A stretch of 64,000 nt of DNA from Segatella copri (GTDB lineage Bacteria; Bacteroidota; Bacteroidia; Bacteroidales; Bacteroidaceae): NCBI RefSeq assembly GCF_009494395.1, contig NZ_VZCB01000095.1, forward strand, positions 1-64,000. Direction: 5' to 3'. Made by a program: the position numbers and the translations under genes. The notes beneath the pieces were generated by a model. The model ran no database searches, was not told where the DNA came from, and saw nothing but the letters and a program-made list of their open reading frames with translations. Positions within the stretch are counted from its first letter, which is position 1. Each line of letters begins with the position of its first letter. Below are positions 2,937-23,538 of this stretch, in pieces.

Positions 2937-3100
2937 TAGACTGATAATAAGTTTGTTTGGCTGTGGCGATGCTGAGCCTGCCTGGATGAAACTTTATCAT
3001 GTCATATAGCCTGAAAGCATGCCATTTTGCCATTTTTTCTATGACAAGAATTGACGGAAATCAAGAAATGAAGCCTTTTTCTCAATTTCTTCCAAAAATA

Positions 3101-3132
3101 TTGTGTGCGTACACAAAAAGGCATTACCTTTG
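3101..3132 (+). promoter_or_regulatory. Promoter of the twin micro-protein unit
   Basis: TTG (3101-3103), 21 nt, then TACCTTTG (3125-3132). Overlapping the -33 element is GTGT-GCGT-ACAC (3102-3113), a short palindrome-like site that could bind a regulator. Confidence 0.65.
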
Positions 3133-3183
3133 CACTCGAAAAGATAAAATAAAGAATAATAAAGTAAAGAAAGGATAACAATT

Positions 3184-3276
3184 ATGATGATGGTATTAGG
3201 AATGACATTGGCAGTTGTAGCTGCCCTTTTTGCTGAGGTTGTAAATGTCAACAAGAAGATTAGCCTCGGTAAGTAA
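3184..3276 (+). CDS. Micro-protein A (30 aa, hydrophobic)
   Basis: ATG-ATG-ATG at 3184 opens a 30-residue frame ending in TAA at 3274-3276. Residues 4-18 are hydrophobic (VLGMTLAVVAALFAE) and a basic tail NKKISLGK follows. A purine-rich GAAAGGA lies 10-16 nt upstream. Reality is supported by a dedicated promoter, a shared terminator, and a second downstream frame coding for a protein of the same plan: VLG, a hydrophobic A/V stretch, then AE. It may sit in or on the membrane. I recognise no named family; function is unknown. Confidence 0.6.
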   Translation: MMMVLGMTLAVVAALFAEVVNVNKKISLGK

Positions 3277-3370
3277 GCTGGCTTTGAGAAGCATCTCAGG
3301 ATGCTTTCAATAAAGCTTCAGTCAAAAGGTAAAATTTGGTTAACAGTTTTTTGAGAGAAAGGGAAAAATT

Positions 3371-3457
3371 ATGACAGTATTAGGAATTGTATTTGCAATG
3401 GTAGTTGCAGCTTGCGCTGAGTATGGTGCAAGAACAAACATGAAGGACTTCGCTTAA
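3371..3457 (+). CDS. Micro-protein B (28 aa), paralogue of A
   Basis: ATG at 3371 to TAA at 3457 encodes 28 residues starting MTVLGIVFAMVVAACAEYG. It aligns with micro-protein A over VLG(M/I), the A/V-rich core and AE, but has a different polar tail ending NMKDFA. A purine-rich GAGAGAAAGGGAAAAATT precedes it. The two frames lie in one unit between the promoter at 3101-3132 and the terminator at 3518. A hairpin AGCATC/GATGCT (3291-3306) lies between them. Function is unknown; a membrane-active or regulatory peptide pair is one possibility. Confidence 0.6.
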   Translation: MTVLGIVFAMVVAACAEYGARTNMKDFA

Positions 3458-3517
3458 AAGCGATGTTTTTTCTCATTTGAGAGAATTTAAACAGTAGTTT
3501 CCATATATTATAAAAAG

Positions 3518-3572
3518 GAAAGGCAGTTGTAAGCATCTTCTAGAATGCTAACAATTGCCTTTTTCTTTTTTG
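3518..3572 (+). terminator. Terminator of the micro-protein unit
   Basis: A long imperfect stem (AAAGGCAG-TTGT-AGCAT against ATGCT-ACAA-TTGCCTTT) is followed by TTTTTCTTTTTT. Confidence 0.8.
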
Positions 3573-3690: not shown

Positions 3691-3759
3691 CAGCAAAGTA
3701 CAATATGTCTCATTCGTAAGTATGAAAATTCAAGAAGTAATGAAATAGTATTTAATACA

Positions 3760-4293
3760 ATGCAGCAAGTAAACATTCAATATTACAATTCGCCTTGTGG
3801 AGAAATCATCTTGGCATCGGTGGGTGATGAATTGTGCCTATGTGATTGGAATGAAATGCCATGTGCTGAGCGCAATAAACTTCGACTTTTGAAGTATATA
3901 AAGGCTGAGTTCAAGATAGAAACATCTTCTATCCTGGAACAGACCAAAAAGCAACTGGATGAATATTTTACTGGCAATCGCAAGACATTCGATATTCCGT
4001 TGCATCCTGTAGGAACTGATTTTCAGAAAAAAGTATGGAACGCATTGCTCGATATACCATACAGTGAAACTAGAAGCTATAAGGAAATAGCCATAAGTAT
4101 GGGTACCCCCAATGGCACAAGAGCCGTGGCAGGAGCAATCGGATCCAATGGCATCAGCATTCTCATACCCTGCCACCGGGTTATCGGCAGCAACCATTCC
4201 CTGACGGGCTTTGCCGGAGGATTGGCCACAAAGAGATTTTTATTGGAGCTTGAAGCAGAACAAAAACAACATAAAATGTTGATTTTCAAATAA
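3760..4293 (+). CDS. ogt: Methylated-DNA--[protein]-cysteine S-methyltransferase
   Basis: This 177-residue protein repairs O6-alkylguanine by suicidal transfer of the alkyl group to its active cysteine. Cys138 lies in the PCHRV signature (ILIPCHRVIG), and GTDFQKKVWNALLDIPYSETRSYKEIA is the conserved helix-turn-helix DNA-binding region. The ATG at 3760 lies downstream of a good promoter. An exporter gene and a DUF4186 gene follow closely, so the three may be co-transcribed. Confidence 0.93.
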   Translation: MQQVNIQYYNSPCGEIILASVGDELCLCDWNEMPCAERNKLRLLKYIKAEFKIETSSILEQTKKQLDEYFTGNRKTFDIPLHPVGTDFQKKVWNALLDIPYSETRSYKEIAISMGTPNGTRAVAGAIGSNGISILIPCHRVIGSNHSLTGFAGGLATKRFLLELEAEQKQHKMLIFK

Positions 4294-13676: not shown

Positions 13677-14073
13677 GGGGTTGACTGGATTTGACGGCGA
13701 GATGAAATGGTATGTAAGCATGCGGAGGCTCGTTGGCTACCTCCTAAATCATAGTGAACAAAAAATTAATTGGCGAAAATAACTACGCTCTCGCTGCTTA
13801 ATCGAAGTACAGTAGGTTAACTTAATTCCGGCACAAGGTGCTGGAACGGGACATCGCTCAACGGATGTAGTTCCGAATCTTGTTGATCAAGCGGTGCAGG
13901 CAAATCGGAAATAGTTCGGGTACGCCTCGTTGCCCGGATGAAATTTTAGAGGATAAGGGTATGGTTGGTGGTCCAGGTCTTGCCATACCTCGAAAATTGA
14001 AGGCTGGAATAAGCATGTAGAAAGCATATGGTTTCCTTGTGCGGACGAGGGTTCGATTCCCTCCAGCTCCACC
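13677..14073 (+). ncRNA. ssrA: Transfer-messenger RNA
   Basis: tmRNA rescues stalled ribosomes and tags the nascent chain for degradation. The 5' end GGGGTTG pairs with the 3' CAGCTCC to form the acceptor stem, and the T arm GAGGGTTCGATTCCCTC precedes it. The tag frame at 13772-13801 reads GENNYALAA followed by TAA, a Bacteroidetes-type tag. The genome gives ACC at the 3' end, so the terminal A of CCA is added after transcription. The gene lies just right of the scrambled Rhs region. Confidence 0.95.
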
Positions 14074-14081
14074 CTAGAAAC

Positions 14082-23467: not shown

Positions 23468-23538
23468 TTGGGATACCCGGACTCGAACCAGGAATGACAG
23501 GACCAGAATCTGTAGTGTTACCATTACACCATATCCCA
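23468..23538 (-). tRNA. tRNA-Gln (anticodon CTG)
   Basis: In reverse, TGGGATA pairs with TATCCCA (acceptor). The D arm contains GTGTAATGGTAACAC, the anticodon loop is TTCTGGT with anticodon CTG, and the T arm is CTGGTTCGAGTCCAG. The 3' CCA is not encoded. The anticodon stem has one A-C mismatch next to the loop. Confidence 0.92.

Follow-up and report, generated by a model that had tools for sequence, protein, structure and literature searches.

The window, i.e., the whole stretch of 64,000 nucleotides that was analysed, belongs to a 3.93-Mb genome of Segatella (Prevotella) copri, a species that is abundant in the human gut and about whose regulation little is known. The window carries a unit of two tandem microprotein genes, ORF A and ORF B, the features of which are collected in Table 1; the unit is bounded upstream by a thioredoxin-like gene (2355-2870) and downstream by a 6-O-methylguanine DNA methyltransferase gene (approximately 3757-4293; Pfam). 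A preliminary description had placed two frames of 30 and 28 amino acids here, flanked by a promoter with a palindrome across its -33 position and by a strong terminator, and this layout was confirmed in coordinates and parts; it had overlooked the FNR-type box further upstream, the genus-wide family of the proteins, the paralogous units elsewhere in the genome, and the putative wider regulon. The -7 box conforms to TAnnTTTG, the Bacteroidetes-type motif. None of 200 shuffled sequences was as stable as the terminator, and none of 100 was as stable as the full transcript of the unit (fold z -4.6). A generic scan, restricted to sigma-70 hexamers and short stems, listed neither the promoter nor the terminator of the unit and was set aside as uninformative, as it addresses the wrong promoter type. 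Rfam models searched over the window returned only a tmRNA and a tRNA (13677-14074 and 23468-23538).

Table 1. Features of the microprotein unit (window positions) and RNA-like units elsewhere in the same genome (contig positions)
Feature	Position	Strand	Remarks
FNR-type box TTGACGGAAATCAA (consensus TTGAYNNNNRTCAA)	3051-3064	+	60 nt before the -7 box
Palindrome TTGTGTGCGTACACAA (pattern TGTKTNCGNAMACA)	3101-3116		overlaps the -33 position
-7 box TACCTTTG	3125-3132	+	assigned from sequence; Bacteroidetes type
5' leader, ending in GGATAACAATT ahead of ATG	3141-3183	+	start context common to the family
ORF A, 30-aa single-helix microprotein, family A, MMMVLGMTLAVVAALFAEVVNVNKKISLGK	3184-3276	+	
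Inter-ORF spacer with GAAGCATC-GATGCTTT hairpin	3277-3370	+	poorly conserved; fold z -1.65
ORF B, 28-aa microprotein, diverged paralogue of A, MTVLGIVFAMVVAACAEYGARTNMKDFA	3371-3457	+	
Intrinsic terminator, hairpin and T tract	3520-3571	+	fold z -6.6
RNA-like unit L009	C16:65535-65900		contains GATTGTTTATTCAAGGACGACA
RNA-like unit L012	C23:5016-5450		contains GATTGTTTATTCAAGGACGACA
RNA-like unit L199	C90:34929-35011 region		

Selection of the kind expected for translated sequence is evident in both frames. Compared with four copies in S. copri Indica (genome G042), ORF A differed by 14 synonymous and 2 non-synonymous substitutions (pooled dN/dS 0.038), and ORF B differed from three Indica copies by 23 synonymous and 22 non-synonymous substitutions (pooled dN/dS 0.19); with A and B pooled, the window gave a dN/dS of 0.161 against two Indica units. 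The Indica copies are not independent of one another, since they are paralogues within one genome. For 24 non-overlapping pairs of family members, dN/dS was likewise 0.161 and rose to 1.21 and 2.2 when the frame was read one or two bases out, with 60, 25, and 166 substitutions at the three codon positions (third position 166 of 251); between the window and Indica, 25 of 38 substitutions fell at third positions. ORFs A and B are protein genes. The selection on the proteins that the preliminary description had suspected was thus borne out, and the findings it had named as a refutation, i.e., frames not conserved in related genomes or substitutions without codon bias, did not materialise. In the footprint against two Indica copies, identity was 0.92 for ORF A and 0.83 for ORF B, compared with 0.86 for the 5' leader, 0.64 and 0.58 for the inter-ORF spacer, 0.67 and 0.61 between box and palindrome, 0.77 and 0.68 for the terminator, and 0.39 and 0.43 for the 3' flank; non-coding sequence outside the box, palindrome, promoter core, and 5' leader was hence retained at 0.39-0.77, below both ORFs. 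The start context GGATAACAATT-ATG recurs throughout the family: of 62 members, 58 have A at -3, 52 have T at -2, and 57 have T at -1. That the RNA itself is the product, either as a small regulatory RNA with incidental peptides or as a dual-function RNA, would agree with the folding of the whole transcript beyond that of shuffled sequences and with apparently non-coding units under the same promoter type (C16:65555, C23:5036, and C90:34929). We consider this very unlikely in view of the third-position substitutions, the low dN/dS, the retention of the spacer at only 0.58-0.64, and the contribution of the terminator, which supplies much of the fold excess; a dual function of the transcript is not excluded.

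ORFs A and B are identical at 50 of 84 nt in frame, which was reached by none of 5000 codon shuffles. Against a family profile built without B-type rows, ORF B scored 12.6 bits (reached by 2 of 2000 composition-keeping shuffles) and the B-type relative in genome G045 scored 26.4 bits. A and B are diverged paralogues, as the preliminary description had proposed. Its further statement that the core is kept and the tails differ holds for the comparison of A with B but not for the family as a whole, because the tail of A (VNVNKKI..GK) is conserved across species and is among the more conserved parts. Searching with ORF A alone recovered a paralogue on contig C11 of the same genome at an E-value of 0.03. 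Further units in this genome encode a B-type protein (C61) and, on C11, an A-type protein with a cationic protein of 39 aa behind it; on C100, the same kind of promoter serves an unrelated protein of 46 aa. In Indica, the nearest genome found, the unit occurs in three places (L058-L060), once in the order A-A-B, and A-type copies number five in the genome; the A-A-B operon (L060, G042:C8:37700-38500) stems from a recent tandem duplication. Tandem pairs were also present in G275 (L098) and G161 (L105), the second copy of the latter scoring only 14.9 bits. The B-type profile A2 retrieved convincing copies only in G000, G042, and G045; matches in the other 14 of 17 matching genomes were dropped as weak and mostly inside longer frames. 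The B-type copy on C61 scored 4.2 bits on the family profile, and its membership rests on its likeness to B. The 46-aa protein on C100, the first G045 protein, and four other microproteins were not counted as members because they obtained no score on the family profile.

Proteins of family A comprise about 29 amino acids (about 25-31) with one hydrophobic helix followed by a polar tail, and follow the consensus M-M/V-T-x(4)-L-A-V-V-A-x(3)-A-x-A-V/I-N-V-N-N-K-I-x-x-G-K (core AxAVNVNNKI). ORF A matched profile A1, which includes ORF A itself, at an E-value of 7e-16. Within its own GTDB genus, A-type profiles matched in 65 of 297 genomes (E-value ≤ 0.05), the weakest of these matches being doubtful and including pieces of long frames (254 and 214 aa). 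In the family-level sample, 27 of 298 genomes matched (E-value ≤ 0.01), all of them from the own genus out of 22 genera, and in the order-level sample of 392 genomes from 204 genera, which contained few genomes of the own genus, the only match was in the own genome (E-value ≤ 0.001). Neither the family- nor the order-level profile search hence gave a match in any other sampled genus, and at the thresholds used the family went undetected in most sampled genomes of its own genus. Carriers among 14 loci were S. copri, S. paludivivens, S. baroniae, S. maculosa, Hoylesella nanceiensis, H. oralis, and other Prevotella. Matches at the DNA level alone were not used to define the family, because some of the weak DNA matches, which were spread over 91 of 200 genomes, are merely generic cores of strong promoters (e.g., L061, a tRNA-Arg promoter). 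Scanning of 40 members against Pfam and NCBIfam gave no match over curated cut-offs, only isolated matches in one or two members (best sub-threshold E-values 0.018 in NCBIfam and 0.02 in Pfam), in keeping with the earlier remark that no named family was known; the A5 profile matched no PDB chain at an E-value ≤ 1, and the titles and abstracts listed in literature searches, which did not extend to small-protein catalogues and supplements, yielded nothing on family A. Judged by sequence alone, family A is an unnamed microprotein family, seen in one genus among the samples.

In part of the family, the genomic neighbourhood recurs. Of 62 loci, 19 are followed by the gene ksgA and 19 have an LPG_synthase_TM gene nearby (18 of them divergent upstream); both were found in 13 loci, either one in 25, and neither within the flanks examined in 37, the window unit being flanked by neither. 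These counts are based on flanks of unequal length and on gene families named on one representative each. The place beside ksgA and LPG_synthase_TM is an old, vertically inherited location for part of the family. A neighbour in 16 loci resembles an aminoacyl-histidine dipeptidase, an identity for which a fragment gave no confirmation in Pfam.

All 62 members carry a net charge of zero before the hydrophobic stretch, which has a mean Kyte-Doolittle value of 2.77 over 15 residues, and an average net charge of +1.15 in the tail after the helix (negative in 4 and neutral in 9 members). Among random short ORFs in family loci, 13% are as hydrophobic as the least hydrophobic member; hydropathy alone hence proves nothing, and it is conservation that does. 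AlphaFold2, run on the single sequence, predicted one helix spanning residues 3-28 (mean pLDDT 85, pTM 0.38). Compared with a typical membrane span, the hydrophobic stretch is short, most of all in ORF B, and there are no localisation data; A and B are probably membrane-embedded. According to the positive-inside rule, by which a positively charged tail faces the cytoplasm, the tail of the family is inferred to be cytoplasmic. A rival reading takes the proteins for precursors of secreted peptides, in which signal peptidase I would cut after A-x-A and free an extracellular signal of about ten residues (e.g., INVNNHIEMGK): in 35 of 40 aligned members, position 17 is A or S and position 19 is A, just before the polar tail, and the tail is conserved. 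Signal sequences normally need basic residues near the N-terminus, and K, R, or H occurs before residue 14 in none of the 40 members; moreover, the window proteins themselves break the A-x-A motif (AEV in A, AEY in B), and none of the recurring neighbours stood out as a gene for a receptor or for processing. We rate this explanation as improbable.

Single-helix microproteins of about 30 residues are often small subunits of membrane complexes, and several from Escherichia coli that are induced by stress or nutrients (CydX, AcrZ, MgtS, KdpF, and similar; approximately 30-50 residues with one hydrophobic helix) are regulated and often missed by gene callers. Family A resembles these in being tiny, single-helical, overlooked, and apparently regulated. 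It differs from them in the absence of a Pfam or NCBIfam match over cut-off, in its tandem paralogues, in having its own promoter outside the operon of a complex, and in its restriction to one genus in the samples. A rival to the conditional modulator is a small subunit that is made constitutively for a respiratory or transport complex, in the manner of CydX or KdpF, which purifying selection and size would suit; promoters of their own with two control sites each, a patchy distribution, and changes in copy number are unlike an obligate subunit, and no genes of such a complex were seen among the recurring neighbours, which leaves the constitutive subunit unlikely in our assessment.

The control region was compared across family promoters. 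From 77 members with at least 20 bits, 69 had a -7 box in range (the 8 excluded include second genes of tandems), 64 remained after removal of 5 near-duplicates, and 62 after removal of 2 with less than 100 nt of upstream sequence. The FNR-type box TTGAYNNNNRTCAA was present in 54 of these 62 promoters, compared with an average of 0.11 and a maximum of 1 in 200 shuffles, and each of the 8 promoters without an exact box showed, on inspection by eye, an imperfect box in the corresponding position. As the members were gathered mainly by protein profile and not by promoter, this count is largely independent evidence; a few loci had entered by DNA similarity. The position of the box is fixed: it lies 60-62 nt before the -7 box in 49 of 62 promoters, and 14 boxes, many as part of tandem boxes, lie at 78-80 nt. 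In the window unit, the centre of the box is about 80 nt ahead of the expected transcription start, and in each of two Indica copies 12 of its 14 bases are kept, both copies fitting the consensus. The promoter core (3117-3140) is identical at 24 of 24 positions in each of the same number of Indica copies. The palindrome TGTKTNCGNAMACA was recognised in 34 of 62 promoters when at least 9 of the 10 scored letters had to agree and in 35 at a cut of 8 (shuffles at the latter cut: average 0.83, maximum 4); it is kept at 16 of 16 and 14 of 16 positions in two Indica copies, and the pattern TTGTGTNCGNACACAA has only three places without mismatch in the genome, one of the others being the promoter of the B-type paralogue. 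The palindrome is probably a second operator, and its central CG is reminiscent of LacI-type operators.

These control sites also bear on membrane-damaging toxins of the type I toxin-antitoxin kind. Such toxins, e.g., Ibs and Ldr, are tiny, hydrophobic, and multi-copy, as is family A, with its tandem duplications (C11 and C61 units of the own genome, five A-type copies and A-A-B in G042), and 1 of 40 members weakly matched the NCBIfam model CD_typeI_toxin (E-value 0.076). In contrast to Ibs and Ldr, there is no antisense promoter signal: an antisense TANNTTTG over the ORFs was found in 6 of 62 loci, compared with 8.45 in single-letter shuffles, and none of this type, the only one looked for, lies over the ORFs of the window unit. 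The sense promoter carries an activator-type box, part of the family is syntenic, and searches with window ORF A against plasmids, with one Hoylesella member against phages, and with alignment A4 against viral contigs gave no match. We give little credence to a toxin.

At least three Crp/Fnr proteins are encoded in the own genome (C19, C79, and C111). The C79 regulator is regarded as HcpR-like because it lies beside a gene that we take, from a look at its sequence, to be hcp; the C19 regulator is closest to PDB entry 2gau (CrpPg of P. gingivalis; E-value 4e-50) and the C111 regulator to PDB entry 1zyb. A fourth match to HTH_Crp_2 over cut-off, a 498-aa frame on C29, was set aside since, by reading, it is not built like a Crp/Fnr regulator. 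In an alignment by eye, the FNR-type recognition residues were in none of the three proteins. Boxes of the FNR/DNR/HcpR type in the Crp/Fnr superfamily (TTGATnnnnATCAA and TTGACnnnnGTCAA; PMC1274295) share spacing and half-sites with TTGAYNNNNRTCAA. In contrast, the motif reported in the same source for HcpR2, which is the HcpR branch that accompanies hcp in Bacteroides (GTAACnnnnGTTAC), and the operator reported for BT4338 of B. thetaiotaomicron in PMC6989115 (TATGTTnTAnAACATA) differ from the family A box. By reading, neither the HcpR2 operator nor the BT4338/Cur operator from that source (wwwTATGTTnTAnAACATAwww) occurs in 3000-3183, where the box reads TTGAC-N4-ATCAA; other family promoters were not counted for the latter. 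HcpR and BT4338 were rejected as regulators of the box on the grounds that the reported motifs do not fit, the motif of the own HcpR-like protein being undetermined. The CrpPg-type regulator on C19 is no clear fit either, because CrpPg is reported to prefer an E. coli Crp-like box (PMC12040651). C19 remains, weakly and without binding data, the first candidate. Control of the unit by a Crp/Fnr protein is an inference, drawn without binding data from the box, from the constancy of its position, and from the presence of three regulators that are candidates. A related setting is the nitrite-responsive HcpR/SnoA RNA locus of B. thetaiotaomicron, which targets hcp and nrfA (PMC13370916): it likewise combines a Crp/Fnr regulator with RNA outputs in a gut Bacteroidales species but has other target genes, and the term "small protein" is absent from that text.

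The reading we favour, with a confidence only slightly better than even, is that the membrane microproteins are switched on only under certain conditions and then tune a complex in the inner membrane. A Crp/Fnr-family activator would bind TTGACGGAAATCAA about 80 nt upstream of the transcription start and switch on the strong Bacteroidetes promoter, and another protein, bound to the palindrome that overlaps the -33 position and probably acting as a repressor in the window unit, would add further control; both the class of the regulator and activation as its effect are inferred. The mRNA would be translated into A and B, which would insert as single helices into the inner membrane, the inferred topology being N-terminus probably out and positively charged tail in. 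The conserved junction of helix and tail (A/S-x-A-V/I-N-V-N-N-K-I) may then bind an inner-membrane protein complex and adjust it under the inducing condition. This last step is a guess, and no partner for A or B was found among the recurring neighbours. If the proteins do act on a membrane complex, they would add a lineage-specific layer of envelope or energy control.

The box is not confined to family A. In the own genome, the combination of box, 50-72 nt, and TANNTTTG gave 10 matches versus 0 when read backwards. Four of them precede microprotein units, one an exported protein of about 115 aa, one a frame of 38 aa, and three RNA-like units; the remaining one, with a spacing of 71, may be due to chance. 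The three RNA-like units contain AGGTTTTTAGGTT-like repeats and no evident gene; they are likely RNAs and possibly conserved small RNAs. An Rfam search of five RNA-like or related loci gave nothing at threshold, and its lone sub-threshold match, a picornavirus IRES model, was taken as chance. In 16 genomes chosen by hand (14 with a family A match, plus G229 and G059), a tighter box and promoter pattern gave at least 156 matches versus 2 in the control. Ninety promoters were read, 30 among the matches listed and 60 fetched, a sample that under-counts family A because its promoters were mostly left out. By reading, 1 of these promoters precedes a family A gene, 9 precede other single-helix microproteins, 7 cationic amphipathic proteins of 31-39 aa, 11 an exported protein of about 120 aa, and the other 62 RNA-like stretches, longer genes, or nothing nameable; no selection test stands behind the small frames other than family A. 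The palindrome has preferred offsets from the box of about -19, +23, +48, and +55. We see an even chance that bacteria of the Prevotella type have a regulon not yet described, recognisable by TTGAYNNNNRTCAA at about -80 and in many cases also by TGTKTNCGNAMACA; its main outputs would be several membrane microproteins that are unrelated, together with cationic amphipathic peptides, one small exported protein, and small RNAs, and it would form a dedicated envelope-adjusting programme of mostly overlooked genes. The sharing of one control site by tiny-protein and sRNA-like genes suggests an undescribed membrane response, and the conserved box in its fixed place makes it easy to compile a set of overlooked microproteins and RNA-like units across the genus.

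Several groups recurred among the box-marked genes. The cationic amphipathic proteins of 31-39 aa stand as second gene after family A in L003, L067, L130, and L146 and alone under the box in L216, L245, L252, L254, L274, L276, and L293, and many of them end in YGEALxx or YNYGRVNxA. The exported protein of about 120 aa (MKK..., with a signal-like start; loci L192, L210, L217, L223, L225, L227, L228, L236, L253, L255, L269, and L290) had no Pfam family for the one representative searched, and its palindrome often lies 22-24 or 48 nt from the start of the box. In L249, L261, and L288, another single-helix protein of 29-31 aa (ETxxML...) has a lipoprotein-like gene (SSCL..DD...DTAIT) after it on the same strand. 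Units resembling L009, L012, and L199 lie, in other species, ahead of genes that read as MATE-like and glycosyltransferase-like. Among the longer genes with a box promoter (L207, L239, and L271) are those for a PAD_porph (agmatine deiminase-like) protein, an NhaD-like antiporter, and a LysO-like exporter.
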